Positions 20,987-44,065 of a stretch of DNA of 44,065 nucleotides are shown here, one piece after another. Under the pieces are notes generated by a model. That model had not been told where the DNA came from. It was given only the letters and a program-made list of their open reading frames with translations, and made no database searches. Source of the stretch: Candidatus Omnitrophota bacterium (GTDB taxonomy: Bacteria; Omnitrophota; Omnitrophia; Omnitrophales; JACQQS01); NCBI GenBank assembly GCA_016206925.1, contig JACQQS010000042.1:1-44065 (forward strand), given 5' to 3'. The position numbers and the translations under genes are program-made. How positions within the stretch are numbered: position 1 is the first letter of the stretch; each line of letters begins with the position of its first letter.

Positions 20987-20998
20987 CGGGAGACTCGA

Positions 20999-22477: not shown

Positions 22478-22487
22478 ATAGCTGCCG

Positions 22488-25502: not shown

Positions 25503-26706
25503 AGACACCTTTTCCGTGCTGCCGCCCGAGCCGCTCCCGCCCGCAAAACCAAAGCGGGGAAAAATTCTCGCCTGGGCGCTCATTATTCTGATGGCCGGCG
25601 CTAGCGCGTATTTTACAAGGGATTATTATCTTCCGAAGCTCTTCCCGGCGAAAGCGGATCGAGAGAAGCCTCCCACAGCCGAAAAAGCCCCAAAAGAAGA
25701 ACCAAAAGTACCGATCAAAACGTTTAAGGTCGGCCGCTTTAACTATGAAGATTCTCTGAATGCTCTTGGGACTATCAAAGGCGCGATCGAATTTAAGCTG
25801 AGTTTTGAGATTCCCGGCGTCATCAACTCAATCAATTATCGTGAGGGAGAGCGTTACGAGGAAGGCGCGCTCCTTGTTTCCCTCAAGCAAGATGATGTAC
25901 TCCTCCGGCTTCAGAAATCGCAGGCACAGTTGAAAAAGGCGGAGACGTCGGTTGCCCTCGCAAAAGAGAAATTGAACGAGCATGAGAAGCTTTTTGAAAT
26001 CGGCGCCATTCCAAAAACAACATTGGACAAAGTAAAGCTTGAAGTCGAATCAGCGGAATACGACCTTGAGGCGGCGCAGCTTGAGGTCAAGGCAAACGAA
26101 AGCGTTCTCGAGAAATCAAATCTTTACGCTCCGACCGACGGAATGATCGGAGAATTGCTTGTGGAAGAAGGGGAAAACATCACGCCCAATACGCTTTTGG
26201 GATCGCATGTACAAGTGGATTATGTCGAAGCAGAGTTTGGCATTGTCGAGCGGGACGTTTCAAGGATACAGCTGGGTCTTAAAGCGCGCATATACGTCGA
26301 TGCCTATCCCGACAAGGTGTTTGAGGGCGTGGTTGACAACATTCAGCCCATCGTTACCGGAACCAGCCGCACAGCGACTGCTCGTATTCGCATCGAAAAT
26401 CCGGAAGGGCAACTCCTGCCCGGCATGTTTGCGCGTATCCGCATAGTCCTTTTCAGCAAGCAAAATACGATTGTCGTTCCCACGGAAGCCGTGCAGGGCG
26501 GAGAAGATGACACCTGGATATTTGCTGTGGACGAAGTTACCGAACTGATCTCGAAGAGGCCTATTCAAGTGGGCTATGAAAGGCCCGACTATGTACAGGT
26601 TGATGTCGGTCTTGAAGAAGGCGAGCTTGTGGCCATGAGCGGGTTCGACCGGCTTGAAGAAGGGACGAAAGTTCGTGTCATCGAAAAACAAGAAGCGGAA
26701 TTGTGA
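25495..26706 (+). CDS. RND periplasmic adaptor (membrane fusion protein)
   Basis: The 403-residue protein has an N-terminal membrane anchor (about 23-40) after a proline-rich cytoplasmic tail. A lipoyl half (FKLSFEIPGVINSINYREGERYEEGALLVSL) is followed by a coiled-coil hairpin (about 140-205), the second lipoyl half (NLYAPTDGMIGELLVEEGE) and a beta-barrel domain with GVVDNIQPIV, SRTATARIRI and LLPGMFARIRI. This is the HlyD/AcrA order. It links the TolC-like channel to the RND pumps. A single adaptor serves two pump genes. Confidence 0.92.
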   Translation: MPEDTFSVLPPEPLPPAKPKRGKILAWALIILMAGASAYFTRDYYLPKLFPAKADREKPPTAEKAPKEEPKVPIKTFKVGRFNYEDSLNALGTIKGAIEFKLSFEIPGVINSINYREGERYEEGALLVSLKQDDVLLRLQKSQAQLKKAETSVALAKEKLNEHEKLFEIGAIPKTTLDKVKLEVESAEYDLEAAQLEVKANESVLEKSNLYAPTDGMIGELLVEEGENITPNTLLGSHVQVDYVEAEFGIVERDVSRIQLGLKARIYVDAYPDKVFEGVVDNIQPIVTGTSRTATARIRIENPEGQLLPGMFARIRIVLFSKQNTIVVPTEAVQGGEDDTWIFAVDEVTELISKRPIQVGYERPDYVQVDVGLEEGELVAMSGFDRLEEGTKVRVIEKQEAEL

Positions 26707-26715
26707 GGCGCACCA

Positions 26716-29700
26716 TTGAGTTTACCGTCATTTTCCGCAAAACGTCCAGTCACGATCGTAATGGTTTATCTGGGCGTCGTATTATTAGGCTTGATCGGCC
26801 TTAGCCGCCTCCACCTAGATTTATTTCCTCCGATTACATTTCCCGAAGTCACCATTGTCACAACGTATTTCAATGCCGCTCCGGAGGAAATCGAAACGCT
26901 TGTCACCAAACCGCTCGAGGAAACCGTAAGTTCCGTAAACGGCCTTCGATCGATCCGCTCCGATTCCCAGGAAGGAAAAAGCATCATTCACGTCGGATTT
27001 GATTGGGGTATCGACGTTGATTTTGCCGCGCTGGCGGTTCGCGAGAAAATCGATCTTGTAAAAGACAAGCTGCCGCGGGACGCATCCGAACCGGTCGTTG
27101 TAAAGTTCGACCCGCTTGCCCAGCCCGTGATGCTCCTTTCGCTGACTGGCAAAGGCTCTCTGGTAAGCTTAAAAGATCTTGCCGTAACGACCATAAAAGA
27201 TGTGCTTGAGAAAACCGAAGGAGTTGCTTCCGCCACGGTATCCGGCGGACTCGATCGTGAAATTTTAATCGAAGTAGACCAAGGCCGGCTTTATGCTTCG
27301 GGCCTTTCGATCCTGGCGTTGACGGAATCGCTCGAGCGCACCAACCTATCTTACCCGGCCGGCACGATCAAAAAGGGCCTTTATGAGCATTTGATACGAA
27401 CCATCGGTGAGTTTGAAACGCTTGAAGATATTTCATTCTCCGTTGCGGGAACGGACAGAAGCGACCGTATTTATGTTCCTCAGGGCGGATTCGTCGAACG
27501 CGCGAAATTCGGTCCGCGTGACACCATCGAGTCCAAGCGGCTGGAGCAGGAGAAAGAACGGCCAAAGAAACGTTTGATTTTGTTCAAGGATGTCGCTACG
27601 GTCAAAGACAGCATCAAGGAGCAGGAAAGCATTTCCCGTTACGACGGCAGAGAAAACATCACGATCGCCATTCAAAAACAGGCCGGCCAGAATAACGTGA
27701 ACATCGCTAGGGAGATCCGCGAAACGCTGAAAAAGCTCGAAGAGGAACTCAGGCTTCGCGAAGCGCATATTGAAATTGTCCTCGACAGCTCGGTATTTAT
27801 CAAAGATGCGATTTCATTTGTCGCAGACGCGGCGTGGCAGGGCGCGCTGCTTGCATTTGTGACTCTCCTTTTTTTCCTCAGAAGTTTTACCACCGCGCTG
27901 ATCGTTACGCTGGCCATCCCCATTTCCATTTTGGGTGTGTTCTTTCTTATGTTTCTGCGCGGCATCACCATCAACATCATGTCCCTCGGAGGCTTGGCGC
28001 TCGGCGCCGGCATGATGGTGGACCAAGGCATTGTCGTTATTGATAACATCTTCAGGCACCGGGAGCGCGGCGCCCACCACTTCGAAGCCGCTGTAAAAGG
28101 AACCGAAGAAGTTCTTTGGCCGGTTTTTTCATCCACCCTCACGGCGATCGCCGTATTTTTCCCGCTCATCCTGTTTGTGCCGGGCGTACCGGGGCAAATA
28201 TTCGGCGATTTGGCCTGGACCGTCATCCTCGCGCAGGCGGTCTCACTGATTGTTTCTGTTACGCTGGAACCCATGCTTGCCGTTTACATTAAAACGGAGC
28301 GTAAAGCGGCGTTCGAAGGCAAAGGGTCCGCCGCCCGGCTCGAGCGATTTTTTGGGCCGGGTAAAGTAGGAACCGCCATTGCTTTTATCCTTCTCAGCAC
28401 CACCGTTTTATTTGCCATGTCGCTCGGTGTTTTCGGACAATTAAATCGCGAAGTGCTGCCAAAAGTCGATCAAGGAACATTCCTCATGAATGTTGAACTG
28501 CCTGTAGGCGCAAAGCTTGAGGCCACGGATCAAATTGTAAAATCGGTCGAAGACACGCTCGTCAAAATCCCTGAATTGGCACACCGCAACGTTACCATCG
28601 GCGCTTCAAAAGAGGAAAGCGCGGCCGGTGTGGTGGAAGTTGAAACAAGGGGATCGCACCAGGCGCAAATTGCTGTAACTTTACGCGATGATCGGGATCG
28701 TACCACGGTTGAGGTGGTTGATGACCTCCGCCGCCAGATCAGCCGGCTCGATCTCGGGGCCGCGCGGATTGACTTTGTCCTGCAGGAAAGACAGTTTGAG
28801 GTTGTCGGGGGCGCCCAGCCCGTTCAAATAGAAGTTCAAGGCTACGATTTCGACATGCTCAGGAAGCTGGTTCAAAATGCAAAAGATGCCGTTCGAAAAA
28901 TTCCCGGTGTTTTTAATGTTGTTGATGATGAGCCAGCGCCTTCCCCCGAGACAAAAATTGATATCGATAAGCGCAAGGCGGCGCTTTTCGGGATATCCGC
29001 TTTGGATATCGCCATTGCAACGCGCACGGCCGTTGACGGGGACGTTCCCTCCAAATTCCGGGAAAAAGGCCGCGAAATCGATATTCGTGTGCGTCTGAGG
29101 GAAGAAGACCGGCAGAATACGGAAAAACTTCAAAACCTTCTCATTCATTCCGAGCCGTTTGAAATTGAAGTACCCATCAAAGAAATGGCGGCGATCACAC
29201 AGGGACTCGGGCCCAGCGAAGTTCGCCACCGCGATCAGCAGCGAACCGTCATGGTCCAGGCGGGCGTCCTGCCGGGACATGAGAAAAACGCGGTGCTTTC
29301 TGCCGTAGCAGATACCATTCGATCGTTGGATGTTCCCGAAGGCTTCGCGGTTACCCTTGCCGGAGAAGCCCAGGAGATTCAGGAATCTTTTTCCCGGGTT
29401 CTTTTCGCCCTGGTGCTTTCGCTCATCTTGGTCTATATGATCATGGCCGCACAATTTGAGTCTTTCCTGCATCCTTTCGTGATCATGCTTACCGTGCCGC
29501 TTGGTTTAATCGGCGTTTCGTTTGCGCTGCTCGTCACGAAGACTTCACTGAATCTCGTTTCACTGCTGGGTATCATTTTGCTGGGCGGAATTGTCGTCAA
29601 CAACGGTATCGTTCTTATCGACTTCATCAACGCGAGCCGCCGGGACGGAAAGTCAATCGTGCACGCGTGTATCGAGTCCGTGCAAGTGCGTACGCGGCCG

Positions 29701-29895
29701 CTTCTTATGAGCGCCTTTGGAAACATCATCGGTCTTTTCCCGCTGGCGCTGGGACTTGGAAAAGGCTCGGAACTTATGTCGCCCCTGGCCATCGCAGTTA
29801 TGGGCGGCCTCATCTCGTCTTTTTTTCTCACGCTGTTCGTAGTACCGGCTCTTTACGTTCTGTTCGAAGGATTGATTTCTAAAATCCGCAGGTGA
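26716..29895 (+). CDS. RND efflux pump, HAE1-type subunit 1
   Basis: The 1059-residue inner-membrane pump starts with TTG 26716, with GAGG at 26705-26708 seven bases upstream, giving the conserved N-terminus LPSFSAKRPVTIVMVYLG. Twelve membrane segments and two large periplasmic loops are present. The TM4 proton site has Asp436 but Gln437 (GMMVDQGIVV), where AcrB has Asp-Asp. TM10 has Asn962-Asn963 (VVNNGIVLID) where AcrB has Lys940. Such residues occur in many HAE1 pumps of other phyla. An insert of about 50 charged residues (about 250-300) lies in the first loop. The substrate is unknown. Confidence 0.93.
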   Translation: MSLPSFSAKRPVTIVMVYLGVVLLGLIGLSRLHLDLFPPITFPEVTIVTTYFNAAPEEIETLVTKPLEETVSSVNGLRSIRSDSQEGKSIIHVGFDWGIDVDFAALAVREKIDLVKDKLPRDASEPVVVKFDPLAQPVMLLSLTGKGSLVSLKDLAVTTIKDVLEKTEGVASATVSGGLDREILIEVDQGRLYASGLSILALTESLERTNLSYPAGTIKKGLYEHLIRTIGEFETLEDISFSVAGTDRSDRIYVPQGGFVERAKFGPRDTIESKRLEQEKERPKKRLILFKDVATVKDSIKEQESISRYDGRENITIAIQKQAGQNNVNIAREIRETLKKLEEELRLREAHIEIVLDSSVFIKDAISFVADAAWQGALLAFVTLLFFLRSFTTALIVTLAIPISILGVFFLMFLRGITINIMSLGGLALGAGMMVDQGIVVIDNIFRHRERGAHHFEAAVKGTEEVLWPVFSSTLTAIAVFFPLILFVPGVPGQIFGDLAWTVILAQAVSLIVSVTLEPMLAVYIKTERKAAFEGKGSAARLERFFGPGKVGTAIAFILLSTTVLFAMSLGVFGQLNREVLPKVDQGTFLMNVELPVGAKLEATDQIVKSVEDTLVKIPELAHRNVTIGASKEESAAGVVEVETRGSHQAQIAVTLRDDRDRTTVEVVDDLRRQISRLDLGAARIDFVLQERQFEVVGGAQPVQIEVQGYDFDMLRKLVQNAKDAVRKIPGVFNVVDDEPAPSPETKIDIDKRKAALFGISALDIAIATRTAVDGDVPSKFREKGREIDIRVRLREEDRQNTEKLQNLLIHSEPFEIEVPIKEMAAITQGLGPSEVRHRDQQRTVMVQAGVLPGHEKNAVLSAVADTIRSLDVPEGFAVTLAGEAQEIQESFSRVLFALVLSLILVYMIMAAQFESFLHPFVIMLTVPLGLIGVSFALLVTKTSLNLVSLLGIILLGGIVVNNGIVLIDFINASRRDGKSIVHACIESVQVRTRPLLMSAFGNIIGLFPLALGLGKGSELMSPLAIAVMGGLISSFFLTLFVVPALYVLFEGLISKIRR

Positions 29896-29902
29896 AGCAC
29901 AG

Positions 29903-32900
29903 ATGGGTTTGCCGAATTTCTCCGTAAAACGCCCCGTCACCATTTTGATGATTACCATAGCCGCGCTGCTTTTGGGACTCATCTCGCTTACGCGGCTTCC
30001 CATAGAACTTTATCAGGATCTGGGCCGAGGTATCATCAGCATCGTCCTCCGCGTACGCGGCGGGTTGTCACCTCAAGATGTCGAGCGCATGGTGACGCGC
30101 CCGGTTGAAGAAGCCGTGGCAAGCGTACAGCGTCTGCGCCGGCTTTATTCCAACACGCGGGAAGGGGAAGCGCGCGTCACACTCGAGTACGAGCCCGGTA
30201 CGGATATGGATTTTGCGGCGCTGGAAGTTCGCGAGAAGTTTTCAGCGGTACAGGGACATCTCCCAAAAGAACTGGAGCGGCCCGTCCTGGCCAACTACAA
30301 AGAAAGCGACTCTGCGATTCTGGTTTATTCGGTTTCCTCCTCTTCGCTTACCCCCGAGCAAATACGCGAAATTGTGGAAAAGAAACTCAAACCAAAATTA
30401 GCTCGAGCCAACGGCGTAGCCAGCGTCGATATTTTCGGCGGCCGCGAGCGTAAAATTCTTGTTGAGCTGGACCGTGATAAGCTGTTTGCGCAAGGCATTT
30501 CAGTCGAGAAGGTTATGGAAGTTTTGAGCATCAGTAATATCAGTCTTCTCGCAGGGAATGTCTCGGCGGGAGATACCGATCTGCTTGTGCGCACGCGCGG
30601 GGAATTTGAAACCGTTGAGGCTATCAGCGAAATCGGAATTGCCAGCACACCGCAAGGCTCTATTATCCCATTGAAAGAAGTTGCCACCATCAAGGATGCT
30701 TATCTGGAACCGGAAGATTATTCGCGGTTAAATCTGGATCTGAACGTTTCGATTCAAATTAAGAAAACAAGTACTGCGAATACCATTGCCGTTACCCGGC
30801 AGGTCACCAATATTATCGAAAATTTTAAAAACACCACTTCGGATGATTTGGTCATCATTGAAATTGCCAACCGGGGAAAAGTAATTGCGCGCGCCATCAA
30901 TGAAGTCAAAGATGCGCTTTACAGCGGGGCGGCACTGACCGCGCTCATCTTTTTGATTTTCTTAAAGCAGTGGCGTTTGGCGGCCGTTGTTTGTATTTCA
31001 ATTCCGGCGTCCGTCATCATTACATTCGCGTTCATGGATCTGTTCGGCATTTCGATTAACATTATGACGCTGAGCGGACTTTCGCTGGCCATCGGCAATA
31101 TCGTTGACTCTTCCGTGGTCATTCTTGAAAACATGACGAAAAAACGGGAAGAGGGCAACGCCGCGCGCGAATCGATCGTGAGCGGCGCCGAAGAAATGTG
31201 GAAGCCCATGCTGGCTTCCACGCTCACATCCATTGCCGTATTTATTCCAATCATATTTATTGACAAGGAGATACAGCTCATCTATCAGGGTCTCGCATTC
31301 ACGGTTTCCGTGTCGCTTCTGCTCTCCCTAGCGGTTTCTGTAATGCTCGTTCCCATGCTGGTGGACCGGCTTCGGCTGATCGAGCAAATCAAAAAAACAA
31401 AAGGCGAACTTTACAGCAGCCGCAGTTATCGGTTTTACGAAGGGCTTCTCAAATGGACAAATGCTAGGCGATACCTCGCTGTTCCGCTCGTACTGCTTTT
31501 CTTTGCTTTTGCCACGTATGGTCTTATGCAACTGGACATCGATTCTCCAAAAACGCTTGAAGAAAATGAATTTGCCTGTATTGTTTTTCCCATTGCGGGC
31601 GCCAATCTCGAAGCCAATGACGAGGTGACCAAAAAAGTCGAGGACATCATCCTGGCATTTCCGGAGGTCACCACCGTTTCTGCAACGGTGCGCCGGGACG
31701 ATATTCGGATATTTGTCCGTCTGGTGCCCCGTAAAGAACGCGACCGATCGAAAGATGAAATCATGAAATTGGTGAAAGAGCAGGCGTCGGAGGCCATTAA
31801 ATCCGTGCATCAGGATTATTCTCTGATCATCGACGAAGGTGTGAACACGGAAGACGCCAGCCGAATTGTGATCAATATTTACGGCATTGAAAATTCCACG
31901 CTGGAGGAGCTAGCGCACAAAATTGCCCAATCCATCGGCGACATTCCGGGCATTACCAATATGGTCATGACCGATTTGCGCAAGCGTCCTGAATACGATC
32001 TAGTCGTGGATCATGCCCGCGCGGCGTTCTACGGTCTAACCGTGCGGGAAATTGCAGACTCGGTTCACGCCCAAGTGCGCGGCATGCGCCCGACACTTTT
32101 TCATGAAAAGAAGGAGGGAATGGAAGTCGAGACCATCACACGGCTTCAGCCCATTTATCGGCAGAAAATTGAGGACCTCAAACGACTTATTATTCATGCG
32201 CCCGACGGTACCCCCGTCATGCTTGAACAGGTCGCCACATTTCAGCCGAGTTACGGCCCCCAAATTATTGACCGCATAAACAAGCGCCGTTATGTCTTTC
32301 TCAAGGCGGACATTACGCGGGGCGCTATGGAAACGATCGGAGAGCAAATCCGGAAAAAAATCCGCGCGATCGAATTCCCGAAAGATTACTCGTGGGCCTT
32401 TGGCGGCGATTATGAAAAGCTGATCAAGAGTAAGGCTCAACTCAGCATCGCAATCATAATCACCATTGCGCTGGTCTACATGATTCTCGCGTCCATGTTT
32501 CAGTCCTATACGGAGCCCTTTATCATTATGTTGACCGTTCCTCTGGCCATGATCGGCGTGTATTTGGCCCTGATTCTCACGAAACGTCCTTTAAGTCAGC
32601 CGGTTTTTATCGGGATGATCATGCTTTGCGGAATGGCGGTGAACACAGGGATTATTCTTTTAGATCAGACGAACATTCTCCGGCAGGAAGGTTTTGAACC
32701 AGCACAGGCGGTCGTAAGCGCCGCCAAGAGCCGTCTGCGGCCGATCTTGATGACATCCATTTCAACGGTTGTTGGATTTCTTCCTCTCGCACTCAATCTC
32801 GGCGAATCGTCAGAACTCTGGGCCCCTTTGGCGGTGATTGTAATCGGCGGCACGATTACCTCAACCATCCTCATGCTCTTTTTCGTTCCAAACATCTATT

Positions 32901-32950
32901 TAATTTTCAACGATTTTGCCGCCAGAATTTCCGCTTTACGCCGAACTTGA
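29903..32950 (+). CDS. RND efflux pump, HAE1-type subunit 2
   Basis: The 1015-residue pump begins LPNFSVKRPVTILMITI, seven bases after the first pump gene. Overall layout is the same, but the sequences are clearly divergent, so this is not a recent duplication. TM4 has Asp402 and Ser403 (IVDSSVVILEN), and TM10 has Asn914 (AVNTGIILLD). The pair may form a mixed trimer in the way MdtB and MdtC do, or two separate pumps sharing one adaptor and channel. The operon ends here; 364 bases without a gene follow. Confidence 0.93.
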   Translation: MGLPNFSVKRPVTILMITIAALLLGLISLTRLPIELYQDLGRGIISIVLRVRGGLSPQDVERMVTRPVEEAVASVQRLRRLYSNTREGEARVTLEYEPGTDMDFAALEVREKFSAVQGHLPKELERPVLANYKESDSAILVYSVSSSSLTPEQIREIVEKKLKPKLARANGVASVDIFGGRERKILVELDRDKLFAQGISVEKVMEVLSISNISLLAGNVSAGDTDLLVRTRGEFETVEAISEIGIASTPQGSIIPLKEVATIKDAYLEPEDYSRLNLDLNVSIQIKKTSTANTIAVTRQVTNIIENFKNTTSDDLVIIEIANRGKVIARAINEVKDALYSGAALTALIFLIFLKQWRLAAVVCISIPASVIITFAFMDLFGISINIMTLSGLSLAIGNIVDSSVVILENMTKKREEGNAARESIVSGAEEMWKPMLASTLTSIAVFIPIIFIDKEIQLIYQGLAFTVSVSLLLSLAVSVMLVPMLVDRLRLIEQIKKTKGELYSSRSYRFYEGLLKWTNARRYLAVPLVLLFFAFATYGLMQLDIDSPKTLEENEFACIVFPIAGANLEANDEVTKKVEDIILAFPEVTTVSATVRRDDIRIFVRLVPRKERDRSKDEIMKLVKEQASEAIKSVHQDYSLIIDEGVNTEDASRIVINIYGIENSTLEELAHKIAQSIGDIPGITNMVMTDLRKRPEYDLVVDHARAAFYGLTVREIADSVHAQVRGMRPTLFHEKKEGMEVETITRLQPIYRQKIEDLKRLIIHAPDGTPVMLEQVATFQPSYGPQIIDRINKRRYVFLKADITRGAMETIGEQIRKKIRAIEFPKDYSWAFGGDYEKLIKSKAQLSIAIIITIALVYMILASMFQSYTEPFIIMLTVPLAMIGVYLALILTKRPLSQPVFIGMIMLCGMAVNTGIILLDQTNILRQEGFEPAQAVVSAAKSRLRPILMTSISTVVGFLPLALNLGESSELWAPLAVIVIGGTITSTILMLFFVPNIYLIFNDFAARISALRRT

Positions 32951-33265: not shown

Positions 33266-33314
33266 CGGCGGAAACTAAAGGTTTTAAAAATCTATTTTCT
33301 AAAAGGTTTAGCTG

Positions 33315-36300
33315 ATGCAAATTTGGCAGGATAAAAGATTCCGTCCCTGGCTCAGATTCCTGTCCCTCACCATAACCACTATTTTTACGCTCACAAGTAT
33401 CTCCTGGGCTGGCGGAGAAAACCTTCTCAGCCAATTCAGCTCTATCGGAAAAACCGGCTCTAATTTTTCTTTTGAGCAAAATCTTCTTAAAGAATTATAT
33501 ATCCCGGATAAAATCGGACGCATTCAAACACTCTACCAAGGCAGCGGCGAGCAGGTGGTTGTCCACATCCAGGACGCGCACGCAAGCGCGGACGCACAGC
33601 GCAACATCGCCTGGATTCTTGAAAATCTGCACAAGAATTACAAACTGAACCTCGTAAACGTTGAAGGGGACGAGGGTGATATCGACACGGCCATGCTGGC
33701 GGCCTTCCCGCACCAGGGCGCCAAGGACATTCTGTTCAACCATCTTTTGCAAAAGGGACAGATAACCGGCCCCGAATTTCTCGCGGTCACCCAGCGGATT
33801 CCCATTCTGATTCACGGTATTGACAATCTCGAGCTCTATGAAAAAAACCGGGCTGCTTTCATCCTCGCGCTTGAGTTCCGGCAAAAAGATGAAGAAAAGC
33901 TTTACGAGCTGCGCCGCTCGCTTTCGGCCATCCGGTCTAAAATCTATTCGGATGAGCTCAAAGAATTTACGGCACGCTATGAAGGATTTAAACGCGATCC
34001 TAAGTTTGTGAGCGGTTACGTCGAGTATCTCATCGACCAGGCCCGCAAGCTGAACATTTCCACCTATGATTTCCGCAATGTCCACGACCTTATCACGCTT
34101 ACTTCGCTTGAAAAGGAGATCGATTTCCAGCGTGCCGAAAGCGAGATCGATACATTTGCCGATGAAATCAAGAGCGGTCTTTCACAGCCGGTCTTGACAC
34201 GGTTCCTCTCAAACACGCTGCGGTACAAAATGAATCAGCTCACACCGGACAGTTACTTCCGCTATCTTGCGCGCGAGCGCAGCTCTTTTCCCATGGACTC
34301 GGACCGCTATGCGAACCTCAGAAAGTTTCTGGACTACACGGATACCTACAACCGCATCGGCCCGGATCTTTTTACCGAAATAACTGAATTGGAATCAGCC
34401 ATCAAGAATAAACTTTTCCGGAGTGAAGAGGAGGTGAAACTCGACACGTTTTTCAGACAGCTTGAAATTCTCGAAAAACTTTTCGCATTCACGATGACCA
34501 AAGACGACGTGCTCGCCTTTTATTCCTTCCGCCGCCAATTGAAAATGACCTCATTTGTGGAATTCATTGCCGAGCAAAACCGTCTGCACAATTTAAAGCT
34601 CCCCCTCCCGGAGAAGCTCGATGAAATAGACCGCCACATTCCCATGATCGAGAAGTTTTATCAAGCAGCGCTCGAGCGTGATGAAGTACTCGTTCAGAAC
34701 GCTTTGTCAAAGATGGAAACCAGGAAACAAAAACTTTCGGTGATCATTACCGGCGGTTTCCACACAGCGGGCATCCAGCATTTCCTTCAGGAAAAGAATA
34801 TTTCGCACGCGGTCATTACGCCGCATATCTCAAGCATTGACGAAGCGGGCGAGCGGGCTCTTTACGAGGAAGCGGTGCAGGGCAAACCGACGCCGATTGA
34901 AGCGGTGCTTTACGAAGCGTATCGGATGCCGCATCAAAGCAGTCTGAGCGACCCACGGTTTCAATTGGCAAAAGCATCCTACTTCGTTCACTTCAATGGC
35001 GGATATCGGGCGCACCTTCAAAAAATTGCCGAGGCCGGTTTTGATCAAGCTGCAAAGCAGATTCAAATCAAACCCGTGTTTTGGACTAGCGTCGTACTTG
35101 CTCAGCTGAATGCAATCGCGCGCAGCTTTTTCAGTGAGGAAATCGACTTGAATCAATCCTTCGAACAGTACTGGAACTTAATTCATGAAGTCGGCCTTCT
35201 TGCCGGTGATCTAAACGACAAATCCGAGAGAAAAAAACGGAAAGAGGATTATTCCGGTCTACACAGTTTCCTTTTTGGAATCGACGAAACCGGCTTTCCG
35301 CTGCGAGTGGGATCAAGCGATGTGCGCGTTTTTCGCGGACCAAAACTCGCCGACGGCTACATTGTCATGACCGCATCGCGCGGGATCTCCGTCAATGAAA
35401 AGGCAAACCGGGTTACGCAGCGCCTAAACATTGATGATGTTCCCGGAAACCGGTTTTTAAGCGAGATCCGGATTAACGAAGTTCAGATGCCGGGACGTAC
35501 GCGGCCTGAAGAATTGGGCATCAGCGTTTTTCTTGTCAATGAGCAAACCTACGCGCACATTACTCAGTTAGCCAATAAATTCCACGCAGCCGGGGCGCCG
35601 CGCCGACCGCGCGGCACCGCAGCACCAAGCGGCCGACCGCCGCTCAGTCAAGCGGCGTCCCGCCCCGGAATTGCCGGGCAGGATGCCCGGCCTGCGCACA
35701 TGGGAACGACGCCGCAGAAAGACAAGCATGTAACCAGTCCGGAATTTGTTCGAGCAACCGGCTTGATGGACAGAATGAACCGAAGCTTATTCGCAATTGA
35801 GAATGTACTCTCCGGAATAGACGAAGATGCCATTGCTACCGGTATCGCGACGAAGTCAGATGCCGGAGGATTGCGCAGGCAATTGCAATCGGCCCTTGGA
35901 AACATTGCCAGACAAAACCGTCTGGTAGAAACAAATCGCTCAGAACTCATGGCGCTGTACGCCAGCCTGAGCGCTCACGAACGAGACGCCATTCAAGCAG
36001 GTTTTGGCGATTTGGCAAAGAAACGCGATGAATTGGGCAAGGGCGTATCAGCATTACGGACACTTTTAAATGATCTTGCCGAGAAACCGGTGGAGCCTCT
36101 GGCTGCTTCCGGATTTGGCGCAAAAAAGCCTGCCGCAAAACCAGATGATAATAGCGCTCAAGCAATTCGTGAAGCTCTAAAGGTACTTCGAGAATCTATT
36201 GCCGAAACTCGCTCTAGAACAAAAGAAGTTTTGACTGAATTTGAAAATGCCCAAGCCAAAGTAAATCTTGTTATTGCGATCCGGCAGCAACTCACGCCAG

Positions 36301-39300
36301 TTAAATCCGCGCGCGATCGTGCCCACAAACTTATTTCGTCTCCGCCGGGGGATCTCAGCGTGGACCAATTCTTCGATATGCGCCGCGAATTGAATGAAAG
36401 CTCAGCAGGACTTGACCAAGCCCGTGAGACGTTAATAGAAAATCTCGCCAACGAATTCGCCGGGAAAATGGAATCCGTCGTTTTAGCGGCTGTTCAAAAG
36501 GCGGAAGGCATTCGAAAACCGATTGACGCAGAAATCGCGCGCATTCAAGAATTAATAAAACTTTTGCCCAAGACTGACGAAACAAATGCAGGAGCCTTAA
36601 CGGATGAGCTCCAAAATATCACGCAAGAATTCAACAGCGTACTTGCAAGTGCCATTCCCGCCGCAAAAGGGGCTGCAACGTACGAAGCGGAATTTCGTAC
36701 AATAGTTCGAAATGCCATGCGTAGTGCGCAAGCCAATTCAAAAAGCACCGCCGCGGAATTAAATAAAAAATGGCGCGGCGTAAAGCGCGAAGGACGATTT
36801 CACGCGGTGCAATACCAAAAAGCCGCAGCGGCGCCGGCGCAGCCGCTCAGAGAGGCGTCACGCACAATGCGAACGCTTTCCTGGATACTTCGCATAGGAA
36901 CTGCTGTTGCCGCTATTATCTTCCTCTGGCCGTTCGCAAACCTGATTTCGGTATGGCTGGCGGGCACAATCTTTCATTCCGTTGCGGTCGTTTGGACATC
37001 TTATTTTGGAATTGCGGCCACCGGATTTCTAATTTCCGAAATAATCCTTTATGCTGCCCGCCTTAGCGCGCAAATAATAACGCCTCTCATTTTCCGCCAA
37101 AACGCTCGAGCTCTTGATGGAATCTACGACACTATCATTCAAACAGGGAAGAATCCGACAAATCGCGCCCTGCCGCGTCCGACTCCGCTCTCAAGTCAAA
37201 AAGAGATACTCGCCTACATCGCGGAACATATTGGCGAAGATCCATTGCCGGCACTAAACGATATCGCCCGGAACAAGGGATTCGAATCCATCTTTGAAGT
37301 GCCCAAGAAGGATTTATGGCTCATCGCTCGAGAAATAGACAGGTCGAACGAAAATTACCACTATGCGATGCACAAAAAGGAAATCATGGAGAAAAAGGCT
37401 CCGAAACAGCTTTTGACGCAGTTCTACAGGCATCGACACACTCAGGACGGCAAGAAAGTCGCATTCCACATTGCGCTCTGGCGCGGTTTCAAAGCATGGT
37501 TCACGGCTCTTGCCCATTCACCGTTAGGCGCTGCGTGGGCAATTATTTCTCTTCCTTACCATTTGGCCGAATCATTTCTTCTCGGCTATTTCATTCCGAA
37601 AATGCTCTGGATTTACGGCACGCGGTCAAATGCGCTTATGCACAATGAGATTTTCCGAATCGCACAATACCATCTTCCGGAAGTCGAACCAGCCCGAGCC
37701 CGGCAAAGCATCGTGGTCAGCTTGGCGTGGTCGCTTGCGCAACTTTTTCGCCATATGTTCTGGGATGAATCTGCCGTCGTTCGAGGTCTCACTGCATTCA
37801 TCAACAAGAGAACATTTCTCTACCTCATAAGCGGTGCGGGCGGTTATTTTCTGTACGCACTCCTTCCCGCCACATTTTTGGCGGCGCCGGTGCCTTTCAT
37901 CGGCACTATTGGCCTCTTTAAGTTTTTCACAATGAGCGCCTACTTATCCTCCGTCATCACGGTTACTGCGCTTTATCTGCCCCGAAAAGTCGAACAAAGA
38001 CAGCAGGAGCTTATCGGGATTCAATGGAAGCAGGACATTGCGTCTACAACCGAGGTGCACATAAATGCCTTGTCTGAAGAAACGCGCAAATCTATTGCCG
38101 CATTGGGGGATTATCTGCGCCATCCGAAATTTCTTGAAGCACACCATAAAGTAATCGAATCCATCAGACAAAAAAGTCCAGAAGAACAAGCACAGGCTCA
38201 AGCTTTCATGCAAGAACGCCTTTTGCCGCTTATTGAAAAAAAGATGCTGAATCTTCCGAATGTCGCAGACTATGCTGCGCTTCGTGAACATTACCTTCCT
38301 GATGCAAAGGGACCGCCGCACCACTGGTGGATTGCCATTCCGTTCATCGGATCCCTTCTCCGCTGGATTTCTTCTCCACTCGCACTCAAATCCTTCTTCG
38401 ATCTCATTAAAAATCCTCTTTTCTGGCTGGAGCTTCTTGCCTGGAATGCTCCCGGCATGAGCTTAATGCTCCCGCTTGAAATTGAATATTTTCTGAAAGG
38501 CGCCGCGTGGATTGATACGGAACTCGGAGATATCGGCGGAAAGTACTTCGAACACATTAACACCGATGAGGAGGCCATGCTGAAGGCAGCCGCAACGCGC
38601 CCCACAGTTCACGGAAAAATTGATGCGATGATCGATGTCGCTATTGCAGATCGTCGCGAAAGTCCGAGCGAACACGATTTACTGACTTTTTTTGTCAATG
38701 ACGCGCATTTTAAAGAACTCTCCGATGCCATAAACATCGCATCCGCCGCGGCCGGAGAAGAAATAGTCGGCCCTCCAGCGCCTACCGCCGCCGAGCAATT
38801 TCAAAGTGCGCTCGAAGCCGAAGCGCGCAAGTTTAAATTTCTTAGCATTGCTGCTCACGCCATTGAAGTGGATGCGCTAAATATTGCCCACGATCTCGGC
38901 ACCGCATTATCTCCCGCACAGGATGTGATTAAACTGCGTGAGCGTGCATACGAGGCCATCGGTTCACCGGAAAAGCTCGAATCGATGGGTATGCGGGATA
39001 TTCAAACACTTCTGGGCGCTCATGATTTTGCGCGCGCCATTGAGCCCGCAGAACAAGCTGACAAAGTCCGCCGCACATTTTTCGACACGATTGACAAAAT
39101 CAAACGTCAGTTTGGAATCGAGAAAGAATCCGTCAAAAAAGACCAGGCCAAACATCCTGAAACAAAATCGTTTGAGTTCTTAGCGAAAACATGGAAAAAA
39201 ATCACCCCTTATGTAAGTGGGGGCGCTGTAGCTCTTCAGTCGTACTTGCCGGTCCTTGGACATCAAGCTGAAAACCTGAATGAACTTGCGCGCGTAAGTG

Positions 39301-42300
39301 GACTAGCGCTTGCAGCTGCAGCCGATAAAGGCCGTGAAATCTCCGATGAGTGGCAGATGGGGCAAAAACTTCGTGACGCCGCCAAGTTCATCGTCTTCGG
39401 CATGCCTGTTCCTGCATCACCGCTCGAATCCCTGTTCGACATTTCTCCGGATACGCTTAGCTCAGACGATGTTGCTCACCGAATTGAAGAAGCGGTCAAA
39501 GCGCGGCCGGATGATTCGTTTGCCCGATCCGTTCTGCCTTCTGAAATTCTTGAACTGCTTCGATCATCTCTCCAAATTGAAGAATCGTCACTCACGCAAG
39601 AACAGCAAAATCAGTTGATAAAATGGTCGGAAGGAATTTCAGTTTTGCTAAACGCCAAAGCGCCCGATCTATTGGCGGCTTCCACACGGGAATTACCGCC
39701 GCCGCCTCCTGAGATACCGGAACCTTTGAATGAAGCTGAATTATCAAAACACATCGAAACTGTGCTTTACCAACCTGCCGATGACGACCGCTCGCCGCGT
39801 TCAATCGCAAATGGGGCATCACGCATTCTTCTCGGCAAGGTAAGCGTGGTTCCTTTTGACGGCGCTTTGGATGAGATCGAACGTGCTATCAAAGAATTTC
39901 TAGATCAACGAAGAAGTCGTGAACAAGCCTTGCTCAGGGTGCGTCCCGAGCTGACTCCATTGAATTTAAATTCCTGGGCCAACCGCGTGGCGGACTCCAC
40001 TCAACTTTACACATGGTATTCCGGAATTCCTGACCGGATTTTGAGAGATACCAATGCCGACGGTACGCTCGATGCCGTCATTAAAGCGCACATCGTTTCG
40101 CCCGCGGACCTCGCAACGACCATTCGACTCATGTATGACGCCCGTGATGCAATCGGCGCCGGAAAGGCGGAGCGGAGACTTGAGGTACTGCTGGACAGAA
40201 TTATTCGAATGCCGAAAAGAAACGACGGCCTGCTTTATTCAGCATACGATCTCAAGGGAAAACCCACCCAAAATGCGATTCCCGATCCCGCCGGAACGCG
40301 GGCCGTTATTGAAACAGTCAACCGCCTCGCGGAGGGCCGCACATTTGAAGGATCGTGGTATCTCAGGCATATAAATCTGAATCGTTTGATTCGATCCGCC
40401 AAACGGCATCTGCCGGATGCTCGTGATCTGAATTATGTTCATTACCAATTGGATGGGAATAAGCTGACTTCAGATGAAAAACAGGTCCTTGAATCTAAGA
40501 TTGCCTCCGCTCTAGAAAACGCCGTTTCGGAAGAAAGCAAACGTATTTCCGAATCCCATACGGCTGCCAAACCGGAAATATATGTCGACCATGCCGGATT
40601 TCGGCGGGACTGGACAGAAGCGCTTGCCGGCATCATTCACGAAACAATTACAAAACCGCCCGCAACACCTGCAGCAGACATCGAAGCCAGCACAAAAGTC
40701 CCAGAAGCACTCGCGCAAAGAGAGTCTCGCGCTAAAACCAAGACCCCGTCCAAGGCGGTCACCCCGGCTGCAATCCGGACCGTCCCCGCTGAAGACGATG
40801 AGGGAGTAACCCGCCTGCAGGAATGGCTTGAATCGGAAAGTGAAGTTGTCGACAAGATTAAAACCGATCCGCGCAAGAAATACATTGCCGAAGCAGCCAG
40901 AATCATTGTCGAAAGCGAACTTACGAATCGAGCACGTGAAGCAACCGAGAAGGGGAGAGATACCCTGGCCGTTCCATTCGAACAGGAAGAGCTGGTCGAT
41001 GCGTGGATATTCCTTTTGGCCGATGAGCAGCGTGTCATCAATATGACCGATGACGAATATTTCGCAGTAGTCAAGGACCTCGCAAACAATTTCCGAAAGA
41101 ATGCCGAGCTGACAAAACCCGAAGCAATTCCCGAAACGCTGCCTTCAGCGCCTGCTATTCCACCAACCGTGTCCAAAGATTTGCCCACGATCGGTGAAAT
41201 GGATTCCGAAGCGAAAAGACTGCTTGCGGCCGAAGATGAATCGCGCCGTATAGCTGCCGGCGATCATGTCTATACGTTAACCGGGCTCGTCGATCGCGCA
41301 GCCGATTATGCGGCCGAAGTGAAACTTGAAGACATTCGAGGAAAGCAGATTGAAAAGCTTGCCGAACTTTATAAACCGATGCTCAAAGCTTATCTTAACG
41401 CGAAATTTACGCCCATTCAGCGCCCACGATTTATTCCCGATCCGCAAAAGCAGGGCCGCGACGCCCAATTACCCCCGAAGGCCAGTCCTCTTGTCAAAAT
41501 CTTTGAGCGCGCATTTCTGCCGGAAGCCGCTCAGGAAATAGGCAGCATGATTTCTTCTCCAAAAGAAACGATCGGCAAAATGGGCGCGCGGCTTAAAGCC
41601 GTGACGTCAGAACCGCCGGCCAAACCTGTTCGAGAGAAGTCGGCAAAAGAAAAACAAATTACCGAGTTGTTGGCCCTCCATCTTACAAAAGGATTACCGC
41701 CATTTCTCGCGGGTATCCTCGATTTCCGCGAGCAACAGGGAGAAGCAAATGTCATTCCCGCGCTTTCGCGGGGACGACATGCCTTTCATAGTAGCCGGGG
41801 CGTCCCGCCCCGGATAGCCGGACAGGATGTTTGGCCTACGCAATTGGGACTTGCAATGACAACGCCATCTCTCGTGACTACACATGGCACAAGCGCAATC
41901 GGAAGTAGTCAGAGCCTCTCGAGTTATTTGGCATCCGATTTGGCGGTAAAGCCATTCACGGCGTTTCAAATGCCCATAACCCCCCCATTTGCTCCTGCCT
42001 TGAGTTCTGTAACTGCACAAGCTCCGTCATCTGCTCTAGCAGCAACCGAATCCGGCGCCGTAGCGGGAGGTGGTGATATCCCTATTCCCGGAGTTGATTT
42101 TGTCCCGGCAACTTGGGCATTCTTTGTCCAGATTCCATCGGTCATAGAATTTTTTGATATCGACATCAGCAGATTTGATGCGAATCAGGATGGCGTTTTG
42201 CAAAGTGATGAAATCACCGATACAAACAATGACGGGCAAATTAACGAAGCAGATTTGCTTCCGCTGACAAATCAGATAGTTGGCGAGGGCGAAGTCAATT

Positions 42301-44065
42301 TCTTTTTAACAGAGGCACAAGTTATCGATGATGACGGGGATGGAATAAACGACCGGCTTTTGATTAATTTGAGTCCAACATTTTCCGCTTTCACTGATGC
42401 CGCCCAGTTCTTTGACAACGCCAACGCTATTTTTGATATGTTGACTACCGCCTTCAATACCGAAACAACCAAAAGAGATATTTTTAATCAAGACAGCATT
42501 CTAAACGGTATTTTCAGCTATTTCGCAGAAAATATCGATGAAGTTTTGAAAGGAATGTTTACCGAGGATGAAAACGGCCGGCTGGCATTCACATCTTTAT
42601 TGGGCGTGACGCGTGCCGATTTCTTTACCAATCTCACTTTCCTGGATGCCAACTCCGGATTTCAGCAGATGTTTAATCCTATAGACCAGGAGTTGCTGAA
42701 TATATTCCTGCGTAATCCTGATTTGGCCGGAGTATTCAGCTTCTTCTCGACCCGAATGCGCGATGTCGACGGCGACGGTGATCCCGATTTTATTTTTACA
42801 ACGCAGCCGGGCGGAGAACCCCAGCCATTTGCCATCGGGCAATTCAATATCAATGTCGCTTCCTCCTTTGCCCAACTCGCCGAACGTTTCGAAGGGGTTG
42901 AGCTTCTTTTGCGCCTTCTAAACGATGATGAAACTTTATTCAGACCGCCGTTTGCGGATGCAACACTTTTCTTTAACGCGCTCAATTTCATTTCCAACCT
43001 GCCGGAATTCAATGCGCTCATGGATCCGAATGCGCCGCCGGTTATTGACGAGTTGAATATGTTTAATTTGTTCCTCCGCGGCGCGGGTTTGGATACCCGA
43101 GCCACTCCGGAACAATCCCACCGCGCCTCCGCCATACTTGCTTATATCGCCAGCCAGGCCCAGCGCGCCGAAGTCATTCGCGATGCTAACGGAAATGTGA
43201 CGGGATACGTTCTTCGTTTCCTTAACGCGGATGGAACGCCGTTTGATGCGCCTGCCGTCGTAAACGCCCGCGATTTCTTCCTCTTACACACGCTCATCGC
43301 CAATACAACAGGATTCCAGCGATTGATCCAAAGCAATGTGGCGATTTTTAACGAGATGACATTTGCCCAGATCATAGAACAAGCCGGTAGCGACGATCCT
43401 AACATCCGCAGTAGAAACCTCGCCTACCTCGGCTGGTTGTCCGGAACATTACAACACAGTTTCGTGACCCAAACCGATGCCCAGGGCAACGTCACGGGAT
43501 GGAAGATACGTTTCTTTGAGACTAACCCGGACGGCAGCATTAAGCAGGATGAGGATGGCAATCCGATTCCATTCGCAGGTTTTCCTACAATGGACGGGAA
43601 CATCGCTTTCTCGCTTCTGCTCGCCATATCTCATACAGACGCGGTCATCCGTCTCGTCGACAGCAACGTTCCCATTGTTTCCGGACTAACATTCCGCGAC
43701 ATCATTACGGCAGCAGGTGATGATGCCAATCCTGCCCTTCAATCTAAAGCGCTCGCCTATCTCGGTTTCCTTACCAATACGGTACAGCATTCGTTGGTTA
43801 CCGAAAGGGATGCTGACGGCAATGTCACGGGATGGAAGATACGTTTCTTTGAAACCAATCCCGACGGCAGTACCAAGCTCGATGCGGACGGCAATCCGAT
43901 ACCATTCCCAGGTGCGCCCGAAATAGACGGACCGGAATGGGCAGCGCTCACACTGGCCATATCCCATACCGACAGCTTTACTAAGCTCTCGTCAAGCAAT
44001 ACCGCCATTCTCGGTGACAAGACATTCCTAGATATTCTGGCCGATGCGGGATCAAAGGATACAAC
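33315..44065 (+). CDS. Giant secreted or envelope protein, 3' end beyond the window
   Basis: ATG 33315 follows AAAGG (33302-33306) at eight bases. Reading every codon to the window end gives 3583 codons with no stop, so the protein is longer than that. Residues 1-34 form a signal peptide (WLRFLSLTITTIFTLTSISWAGG). A Tiki/ChaN-like region follows (about 60-560). Then come long charged helical stretches (about 800-1180), hydrophobic clusters (1188-1251, 1394-1436, 1502-1556, 1673-1718), more helical and proline-rich linkers to about 2800, an EF-hand pair (2955-2980), and divergent repeats from about 2990 to the edge. Two in-frame REP-like DNA insertions lie at about 760-805 and 2811-2846. Function is unknown. 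Omnitrophota are known for such giant genes, but homology is not proven here. Confidence 0.9.
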   Translation, partial: MQIWQDKRFRPWLRFLSLTITTIFTLTSISWAGGENLLSQFSSIGKTGSNFSFEQNLLKELYIPDKIGRIQTLYQGSGEQVVVHIQDAHASADAQRNIAWILENLHKNYKLNLVNVEGDEGDIDTAMLAAFPHQGAKDILFNHLLQKGQITGPEFLAVTQRIPILIHGIDNLELYEKNRAAFILALEFRQKDEEKLYELRRSLSAIRSKIYSDELKEFTARYEGFKRDPKFVSGYVEYLIDQARKLNISTYDFRNVHDLITLTSLEKEIDFQRAESEIDTFADEIKSGLSQPVLTRFLSNTLRYKMNQLTPDSYFRYLARERSSFPMDSDRYANLRKFLDYTDTYNRIGPDLFTEITELESAIKNKLFRSEEEVKLDTFFRQLEILEKLFAFTMTKDDVLAFYSFRRQLKMTSFVEFIAEQNRLHNLKLPLPEKLDEIDRHIPMIEKFYQAALERDEVLVQNALSKMETRKQKLSVIITGGFHTAGIQHFLQEKNISHAVITPHISSIDEAGERALYEEAVQGKPTPIEAVLYEAYRMPHQSSLSDPRFQLAKASYFVHFNGGYRAHLQKIAEAGFDQAAKQIQIKPVFWTSVVLAQLNAIARSFFSEEIDLNQSFEQYWNLIHEVGLLAGDLNDKSERKKRKEDYSGLHSFLFGIDETGFPLRVGSSDVRVFRGPKLADGYIVMTASRGISVNEKANRVTQRLNIDDVPGNRFLSEIRINEVQMPGRTRPEELGISVFLVNEQTYAHITQLANKFHAAGAPRRPRGTAAPSGRPPLSQAASRPGIAGQDARPAHMGTTPQKDKHVTSPEFVRATGLMDRMNRSLFAIENVLSGIDEDAIATGIATKSDAGGLRRQLQSALGNIARQNRLVETNRSELMALYASLSAHERDAIQAGFGDLAKKRDELGKGVSALRTLLNDLAEKPVEPLAASGFGAKKPAAKPDDNSAQAIREALKVLRESIAETRSRTKEVLTEFENAQAKVNLVIAIRQQLTPVKSARDRAHKLISSPPGDLSVDQFFDMRRELNESSAGLDQARETLIENLANEFAGKMESVVLAAVQKAEGIRKPIDAEIARIQELIKLLPKTDETNAGALTDELQNITQEFNSVLASAIPAAKGAATYEAEFRTIVRNAMRSAQANSKSTAAELNKKWRGVKREGRFHAVQYQKAAAAPAQPLREASRTMRTLSWILRIGTAVAAIIFLWPFANLISVWLAGTIFHSVAVVWTSYFGIAATGFLISEIILYAARLSAQIITPLIFRQNARALDGIYDTIIQTGKNPTNRALPRPTPLSSQKEILAYIAEHIGEDPLPALNDIARNKGFESIFEVPKKDLWLIAREIDRSNENYHYAMHKKEIMEKKAPKQLLTQFYRHRHTQDGKKVAFHIALWRGFKAWFTALAHSPLGAAWAIISLPYHLAESFLLGYFIPKMLWIYGTRSNALMHNEIFRIAQYHLPEVEPARARQSIVVSLAWSLAQLFRHMFWDESAVVRGLTAFINKRTFLYLISGAGGYFLYALLPATFLAAPVPFIGTIGLFKFFTMSAYLSSVITVTALYLPRKVEQRQQELIGIQWKQDIASTTEVHINALSEETRKSIAALGDYLRHPKFLEAHHKVIESIRQKSPEEQAQAQAFMQERLLPLIEKKMLNLPNVADYAALREHYLPDAKGPPHHWWIAIPFIGSLLRWISSPLALKSFFDLIKNPLFWLELLAWNAPGMSLMLPLEIEYFLKGAAWIDTELGDIGGKYFEHINTDEEAMLKAAATRPTVHGKIDAMIDVAIADRRESPSEHDLLTFFVNDAHFKELSDAINIASAAAGEEIVGPPAPTAAEQFQSALEAEARKFKFLSIAAHAIEVDALNIAHDLGTALSPAQDVIKLRERAYEAIGSPEKLESMGMRDIQTLLGAHDFARAIEPAEQADKVRRTFFDTIDKIKRQFGIEKESVKKDQAKHPETKSFEFLAKTWKKITPYVSGGAVALQSYLPVLGHQAENLNELARVSGLALAAAADKGREISDEWQMGQKLRDAAKFIVFGMPVPASPLESLFDISPDTLSSDDVAHRIEEAVKARPDDSFARSVLPSEILELLRSSLQIEESSLTQEQQNQLIKWSEGISVLLNAKAPDLLAASTRELPPPPPEIPEPLNEAELSKHIETVLYQPADDDRSPRSIANGASRILLGKVSVVPFDGALDEIERAIKEFLDQRRSREQALLRVRPELTPLNLNSWANRVADSTQLYTWYSGIPDRILRDTNADGTLDAVIKAHIVSPADLATTIRLMYDARDAIGAGKAERRLEVLLDRIIRMPKRNDGLLYSAYDLKGKPTQNAIPDPAGTRAVIETVNRLAEGRTFEGSWYLRHINLNRLIRSAKRHLPDARDLNYVHYQLDGNKLTSDEKQVLESKIASALENAVSEESKRISESHTAAKPEIYVDHAGFRRDWTEALAGIIHETITKPPATPAADIEASTKVPEALAQRESRAKTKTPSKAVTPAAIRTVPAEDDEGVTRLQEWLESESEVVDKIKTDPRKKYIAEAARIIVESELTNRAREATEKGRDTLAVPFEQEELVDAWIFLLADEQRVINMTDDEYFAVVKDLANNFRKNAELTKPEAIPETLPSAPAIPPTVSKDLPTIGEMDSEAKRLLAAEDESRRIAAGDHVYTLTGLVDRAADYAAEVKLEDIRGKQIEKLAELYKPMLKAYLNAKFTPIQRPRFIPDPQKQGRDAQLPPKASPLVKIFERAFLPEAAQEIGSMISSPKETIGKMGARLKAVTSEPPAKPVREKSAKEKQITELLALHLTKGLPPFLAGILDFREQQGEANVIPALSRGRHAFHSSRGVPPRIAGQDVWPTQLGLAMTTPSLVTTHGTSAIGSSQSLSSYLASDLAVKPFTAFQMPITPPFAPALSSVTAQAPSSALAATESGAVAGGGDIPIPGVDFVPATWAFFVQIPSVIEFFDIDISRFDANQDGVLQSDEITDTNNDGQINEADLLPLTNQIVGEGEVNFFLTEAQVIDDDGDGINDRLLINLSPTFSAFTDAAQFFDNANAIFDMLTTAFNTETTKRDIFNQDSILNGIFSYFAENIDEVLKGMFTEDENGRLAFTSLLGVTRADFFTNLTFLDANSGFQQMFNPIDQELLNIFLRNPDLAGVFSFFSTRMRDVDGDGDPDFIFTTQPGGEPQPFAIGQFNINVASSFAQLAERFEGVELLLRLLNDDETLFRPPFADATLFFNALNFISNLPEFNALMDPNAPPVIDELNMFNLFLRGAGLDTRATPEQSHRASAILAYIASQAQRAEVIRDANGNVTGYVLRFLNADGTPFDAPAVVNARDFFLLHTLIANTTGFQRLIQSNVAIFNEMTFAQIIEQAGSDDPNIRSRNLAYLGWLSGTLQHSFVTQTDAQGNVTGWKIRFFETNPDGSIKQDEDGNPIPFAGFPTMDGNIAFSLLLAISHTDAVIRLVDSNVPIVSGLTFRDIITAAGDDANPALQSKALAYLGFLTNTVQHSLVTERDADGNVTGWKIRFFETNPDGSTKLDADGNPIPFPGAPEIDGPEWAALTLAISHTDSFTKLSSSNTAILGDKTFLDILADAGSKDT
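33540..34840 (+). other. Tiki/ChaN/TraB-like N-terminal region of the giant protein
   Basis: Residues about 76-508 contain VVVHIQDAH (HIQDAH at 84-89), LVNVEGDEG (NVEG at 115-118), and near the end VIITGGFHTAGI (GGFHT at 480-484) followed by ISHAVITPHI. The pattern of a buried H-x-x-D-x-H strand, a V-E-G strand and a late G-G-x-H strand resembles the Tiki/ChaN/TraB superfamily of haem-uptake and metalloprotease-like proteins. This is pattern recognition from memory, with moderate confidence. A long helical insert separates the halves. Confidence 0.45.
35654..35705. repeat. Palindromic repeat element, copy 1, inside coding sequence
   Basis: This 52-base unit begins GGCGTCCCGCCCCGGA and contains the hairpin GCCGGGCA-GGA-TGCCCGGC. 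A second copy lies at 41799-41849. Just upstream, GCCGCGC (35597-35603) pairs with GCGCGGC (35609-35615), so the whole stretch 35590-35720 is a GC-rich hairpin island. It is translated in frame as RPGIAGQDARPAHMG without breaking the giant gene. Confidence 0.75.
36876..38469 (+). other. Internal hydrophobic clusters of the giant protein
   Basis: Four clusters look membrane-embedded: residues 1188-1251 (GTAVAAIIFLWPFANLISVW, then TGFLISEIILYAARL), 1394-1436 (SPLGAAWAIISLPYHLAESF), 1502-1556 (TFLYLISGAGGYFLYALLP, then TVTALYL) and 1673-1718 (WWIAIPFIGSLLRWI to WLELLAWNAPGMSLML). Aromatic and glycine content is high. They imply about six to nine spans, so the product may be membrane-anchored with the repeat part exposed. 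Confidence 0.6.
41751..41778. repeat. REP-like hairpin inside the giant gene
   Basis: GTCATTCCCGCG pairs with CGCGGGGACGAC across a CTTT loop; only one A-C mismatch and one G-T pair occur in a 12-base stem. The core CATTCCCGCG is the classic arm of palindromic repeats spread between genes in many bacteria. Here it is read in frame as part of VIPALSRGRH. Confidence 0.7.
41799..41849. repeat. Palindromic repeat element, copy 2, inside coding sequence
   Basis: This copy shares GGCGTCCCGCCCCGGA, GCCGG, CAGGATG, GGCCT and TGGGA with copy 1 at 35654-35705. Its hairpin, GCCGGACA-GGA-TGTTTGGC, keeps pairing through G-T and A-T changes. With the preceding CCGG it also forms CCGGGGCG-TCC-CGCCCCGG (41795-41813). 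The translation PPRIAGQDVWPTQLG matches copy 1 in the same frame from IAGQD onward. Confidence 0.75.
42177..42254 (+). other. EF-hand or dockerin-like calcium-binding pair in the giant protein
   Basis: Residues 2955-2966 read DANQDGVLQSDE and 2969-2980 read DTNNDGQINEAD, two consecutive loops with D-x-N-x-D-G-x-[IL] spacing. Further DDDGDG (residues about 3010-3015) and DVDGDGDPD loops follow downstream. This marks the beginning of the repeat region and suggests a calcium-dependent extracellular fold. Confidence 0.65.
43191..44065 (+). repeat. Tandem repeats of about 98-111 residues at the 3' edge
   Basis: G-N-V-T-G motifs start at 43191, 43485 and 43818, giving spacings of 294 and 333 bases. 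Each unit has the order GNVTG-[YW]-xx-RF, DGNPIPF, LAISHTD or an equivalent helix, TF-x-[DQ]-I, and LAYLG-x-L with Q-H. The last two units share 29 identical bases (43491-43519 and 43824-43852), a sign of recent duplication. The third copy is cut by the window edge. More degenerate copies appear upstream from about 42340. Confidence 0.8.

Follow-up and report, generated by a model that had tools for sequence, protein, structure and literature searches.

A GIANT GENE AT THE END OF A CONTIG

The window analyzed here is the complete contig C17 (44,065 bases) of a 2.0-Mb Omnitrophota assembly in 87 contigs, estimated to be 86% complete, and its right edge is the contig end. Translation of the window yields an open reading frame of 3,583 codons (33315..44063, + strand) that contains no stop codon and reaches the contig end: the 5′ part of a giant gene with its 3′ side open at the contig edge. 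Directly upstream and in the same orientation lie genes for an outer-membrane factor, an HlyD-type adaptor and two AcrB-type RND pumps (23706..32950, +). Just before the pump genes, at 17564–22874, are two histidine kinases, the first of which is a hybrid with a receiver domain, and a separate receiver. The sole Rfam match in the window is a tRNA at 18–89.

Is the frame real, and where does it begin? The preliminary description of this DNA, according to which the frame is free of stops from the ATG at 33315 to 44065, is confirmed as an observation: at the composition of the window, 3,583 open codons have a chance probability of about 10^-74, stops number 137 and 188 in the other two + frames of the region and 81–197 in the three − frames, and the GC content by codon position (0.58/0.41/0.52) is unequal as in coding DNA. 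The Shine–Dalgarno box that it had placed before the gene is found as AAAAGG (33301..33306, +), 8 nt before the ATG, and this box together with a TAG in frame at 33309–33311, just ahead of the ATG, marks ATG 33315 as the natural start. What had been called a strong promoter is a single TTGACT-17-TATACT match of ordinary agreement with the consensus; two promoter-like sites were observed against 1.2 expected in shuffled sequences. An Rfam search of the 5′ leader gave nothing convincing.

The first 32 residues (33315..33410, +) resemble a signal peptide, judging from an alignment in which the pattern W/PWLR...FT.TS..WA is conserved in relatives. They are followed by the head domain (aa 56–540; 33480..34934, +), a helix-rich linker and a hydrophobic module that hydropathy predicts to be a membrane module (aa 1177–1981; 36843..39257, +), common to two other giants, in genomes G018 and G045, with 29–33% identity. 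A motif scan points to two EF-hand- or dockerin-like Ca-binding loops (aa 2955–2980; 42177..42254, +), which have no Pfam match, and to more single Ca-loops at aa 2245, 3005 and 3150. At the contig end are tandem repeats of about 111 aa (43293..44063, +) at a spacing of 333 nt, which run on into another contig, C33; because they are diverged, TRF found no array in the window. The membrane clusters, EF-hands and tandem repeats of the preliminary description can all be recognized. A Pfam search over the 3,583 aa gave one weak match and an NCBIfam search of the frame gave nothing; multiple membrane segments with few known domains are what characterizes Omnitrophota giant ORFs.

A copy of a dispersed repeat of 60–110 bp is read in frame at 35585..35697 (+), with a second partial copy at 41799–41849. 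This repeat, which is similar to Rickettsia palindromic elements, occurs at about 40 sites genome-wide, and several copies are in frame inside giant genes; others are at C33:84379–84490, C55:6598–6659, C77:49469–49538 and C49:33806–33867.

CONTINUATION AND LENGTH OF THE GENE

Extension of the contig to the right, proposed earlier as the way to find the stop codon, led to a probable continuation but not to a stop. The − strand of C33 starts, at the contig end, with the same repeat family in the same frame as the end of C17, and it has no stop for 2,660 codons, after which masked bases begin. Among the contigs of the genome this repeat family is present on C17 and C33 only, with matching orientation and frame. 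The two contigs match over 103 nt at 96% identity in DNA and over 53 aa at 77% in protein, so that the matching segments look more like adjacent units of the repeat than like one stretch shared exactly. With the repeat array in phase on C33 and an open frame of no fewer than 2,660 codons there, a length of about 6,200 codons or more is very probable for the gene; our confidence in the join is high but not complete. The verified sequence comprises 10.75 kb on C17 and 7.98 kb on C33, that is, 18.7 kb before the mask, as compared with the >20 kb used as a criterion for Omnitrophota giant ORFs; the true end of the gene falls in the masked sequence (C33 8001–80000).

Masks of exactly 72,000 bases lie within two of the longest giant frames (C33:8001–80000 and G018:C37:80001–152000), and open-frame lengths are inflated by them. 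A frame of 26,694 codons on C33 was rejected as the size of the gene, as it counts 72,000 masked Ns and the coding frames to the left and right of the mask differ; likewise, a frame of 35,113 codons in G018 counts 72,000 masked bases, and its verified length is 11,064 codons. The ORF to the left of the mask on C33 (1451–8000, −) was also rejected as the end of the gene, its frame being different from that of the giant and its C-terminus being devoid of the tag described below. This ORF (L031), of at least 2,183 codons, encodes an intein/Hint splicing domain and then beta-rich repeats. A search for homologues of the C33 part in relatives returned none besides the dispersed element and one marginal match.

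THE HEAD DOMAIN

The head is carried by 54 of 58 relatives, by nearly all relatives of the same order and by 173 of 384 Omnitrophota genomes, where it often opens ORFs of thousands of codons. The records of 75 of 77 head-homologous loci are titled Omnitrophota/Omnitrophica or candidate species thereof, the other two being generically named MAGs, and these titles support the placement in the phylum. An alignment of 72 diverse heads contains few invariant residues, among which are His89 (33579..33581, +), Glu117 (33663..33665, +), Arg455 (34677..34679, +) and His483 in the motif GGFHT (34761..34763, +). The spacing is 28 residues both from His to Glu and from Arg to His, identical to those of H50–E78 and R261–H289 in EreC, whose catalytic residues are H50, E78, R261 and H289 (PMC7979712); by spacing, the four invariant residues would be the equivalents of these four in the same order. 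Such an H-E-R-H set is shared by the head with EreA/EreC and the Tiki/ChaN/TraB superfamily, to which the top fold matches also belong. The head differs from EreC in a long helical insert (about aa 172–470), in its fusion to a signal peptide and a giant tail, and in a Gln at the position of EreC Glu47.

A confident structural model of the head built from the 72 sequences (pLDDT 90.3, pTM 0.84), which supersedes an earlier one (pTM 0.53), has EreC twice and BcR135, a member of the Ere family, as its top three matches in the PDB, with E values of 0.15–0.24 and TM scores of 0.2–0.26, below significance. The Pfam family ChaN (PF04187) weakly matches 13 of the 72 heads at the second histidine motif, with 14.8–17.6 bits against a gathering score of 27.7, and TraB matches 3 of the 72; searches of PDB sequences with head profiles gave chance helical matches only. 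Matches to the Ere/Tiki superfamily therefore lie under significance in both sequence and fold, and we regard the head, with moderate-to-high confidence, as a probable Ere/Tiki-like hydrolase fold with a helical insert. The earlier label of a Tiki-like region was right in kind, the best motif match being the Ere branch.

Two heads occur within one locus in L088 and L106, and in L097 and L111 a short standalone head lies beside an ORF of 2,503 or 3,069 aa. Heads close together and standalone heads adjoining large headless ORFs suggest split versions of one system. The ends of two contigs, C23:2–526 (−) and C81 (4,172 bp), overlap and apparently represent one head gene split by the assembly.

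PARALOGUES AND UPSTREAM GENES

The genome contains about 14 head loci, and the regions beyond the head are unrelated between paralogues. GH130, an M48 peptidase and an ABC1 kinase are found in the paralogue on C45, a transglutaminase with TPR in that on C13, a carboxylase domain in that on C68 and a methyltransferase in that on C77. The paralogue on C55 (4876–45084, +; genome G000, L036–L038) is a complete giant of 13,402 codons with the same head, and its domains are PGK, aldolase, GPI, KDPG aldolase, FBPase, TIM, IMPase and PGM-like. The PGK match is strong, with the usual active-site motifs retained and the domain apparently intact, while most other sugar-phosphate domains match weakly; a normal PGK of 406 aa is also encoded in the same genome. 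Giants related to that on C55 are present in G025 and G001, and PGK lies within large ORFs of G025, G001, G048, G053 and G076, most of which genomes also have a normal PGK gene. Head relatives elsewhere also stand on long uninterrupted frames, for example the one of 11,064 codons in G018.

The full order of the operon before a head giant is kept in L061 and L075. Pump genes are also present in L059 and L093, where the contigs are cut, and L094 has a distant pair; most other families lack them ahead of head giants. Counting complete and partial cases, the arrangement recurs in four related genomes.

A COMMON C-TERMINAL TAIL

How do these giants end? All eight complete large paralogues in the same genome end in -AA. 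In a discovery set of 20 large head proteins, 17 end in A and 12 in AA; for short head proteins, the count of -AA is 1 of 18. In an independent set, consisting of the ends of giants in other genomes, 23 of 26 end in A and 22 in [ASM]A, and the corresponding numbers among 324 ordinary ORFs of 200–799 aa are 26 and 4. The last 22 residues follow the pattern L..LIE.L...[FY]EA..A[VLI]A.[ASM]A, suggestive of a helical tail. A 22-residue matrix trained on the discovery set distinguishes the second set from 372 background ORFs with an AUC of 0.98, or 0.92 after removal of the last two residues, and the background ORF that it ranks highest, which is 1,503 aa long and reaches a contig edge of C55, is itself probably a truncated giant. 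Inward of the last 22 or so residues, a search for a conserved C-terminal domain revealed homology in a few related pairs only. The codons at the tail ending vary synonymously, which indicates that the signal or the selection is at the protein level. The giant in the window, whose own end lies beyond the contig, is predicted from its family to have a tail ending in -[A/S/M]A. The preliminary description could name no single family for this protein; a family does exist, defined by the common head and the common C-terminal tail, and the earlier interpretation is partly supported.

RELATION TO KNOWN SYSTEMS

Giant ORFs have been described in Omnitrophota (Seymour et al., 2023; PMC10066038), as the preliminary description stated, and a preprint on giant genes (West-Roberts et al., 2023) is cited in PMC12057145. 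The ORF reported here is one of this known kind: it is in the same phylum and has a very long single frame with several hydrophobic segments and few annotated domains. Its head is at the N-terminus after the signal-like segment, as in the other head giants. Most Velamenicoccia giants have been called poorly conserved (PMC10066038), and word searches of the main text of that paper turned up neither a common N-terminal domain nor a common C-terminal motif, whereas here both ends are common to many giants. The literature searched nowhere refers to a head or tail common to giants; the main giant-gene preprint lies outside it, and priority is uncertain. New in the present analysis are the signal peptide with a hydrolase-like head of about 480 aa, the family-wide C-terminal tail and the RND arrangement before the gene.

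In size and repeats the giant is like NRPS/PKS and RTX/type I-secreted adhesins, but Pfam found no NRPS/PKS or RTX domain in the ORF, and type I-secreted RTX adhesins have an ABC exporter whereas the neighbours here are of the RND type, so that it falls outside that class. A nonpolar C-terminus ending in alanine is a feature of Prc/Tsp substrates and SsrA-tagged proteins as well; the tail here differs in that giant proteins carry it as a conserved helical pattern.

POSSIBLE FUNCTION

The explanation that we favor, and consider rather probable, is that the giant is an envelope protein, exported and anchored in a membrane, whose parts are a catalytic head, a stalk of Ca-loops and repeats, and a C-terminal recognition tag. 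The chain would be exported by Sec by way of its N-terminal signal-like segment and anchored in the envelope by the membrane module so as to display or tether the head hydrolase, and it would span outward via Ca-stiffened loops and the repeats of about 111 aa. Its unseen C-terminus would be an amphipathic helix of about 22 aa ending in -[A/S/M]A, and its reader may be a tail-specific protease of the PDZ type or an export or assembly factor. Prc has been reported to recognize nonpolar C-termini (PMC7481392), and by analogy a PDZ tail-specific protease would be the best known kind of reader. As the tail lies at the C-terminus and is thus on completed chains only, its reader would act on full-length chains only. 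The RND system encoded upstream probably takes part in this envelope process, transporting a substrate or product. Shared ends around unrelated middles suggest that each end has the same role from one giant chain to the next, and the simplest reading would be export of a chain that carries a catalytic head and, once completed, a tag.

The -AA endings resemble SsrA tags, and they could accordingly be degrons for turnover of an intracellular scaffold or metabolon, of which the N-terminus is a membrane anchor and the bulk is cytoplasmic. Such a scaffold would suit the C55 paralogue with its sugar-phosphate enzyme-like domains and nearly intact PGK, the related giants in G025 and G001, and the methyltransferase of the C77 paralogue; we nevertheless think it unlikely for the giant in the window, in which Pfam found no cytoplasmic enzyme domain and the Ca-loops and repeats are typical of outside proteins, and also in view of the conserved signal-peptide-like pattern with its A-x-A-like end and of the -SA and -MA endings, which differ from the classic SsrA sequence. 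Still, a paralogue with an ATP-using PGK and the same head makes export of all family members hard to reconcile, and thus keeps an intracellular reading alive. Somewhat less probable again is a weapon for predation or attachment, in which a giant on the cell surface would attach to the envelope of other cells and break it down, its head cutting ester or peptide bonds of material from prey or host. Proposals of this sort have been published for other Omnitrophota giants (PMC10066038; PMC12057145), and the intact hydrolase-like residues, the Ca-loops and the repeats would fit it; however, no carbohydrate-active, adhesin or protease domain was found in the 3,583 + 2,660 aa, and some heads stand alone without giant tails, which suggests a housekeeping substrate.

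Could the gene simply be large, stopping soon past the contig edge, or could its repeats be misjoined? The contig does break within the repeat array, the overlap with C33 is inexact and C33 is masked past 2,660 codons, but confinement of the repeat family to two contigs that agree in orientation and frame, and uninterrupted frames of head relatives in another assembly (11,064 codons) and in the same genome (13,402 codons), make such an artefact very improbable.

A broader proposal, about which we are evenly divided, is that the Omnitrophota giants are one class, with an Ere-like catalytic head and a C-terminal -[A/S/M]A helix read by a machine that would mature, export or check the full-length chains, whose content is otherwise unrelated, the giant with sugar-phosphate enzymes included. 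That paralogue would be very unusual if it is expressed as one chain. Omnitrophota giants have been hard to interpret because they are seemingly unrelated and without known domains. A common head whose active site can be read and a common C-terminal tag define the class in a form that allows searches of any genome and tests by point mutants, and the C-terminal tag is a first clue that the cells may monitor or process the completed chain.
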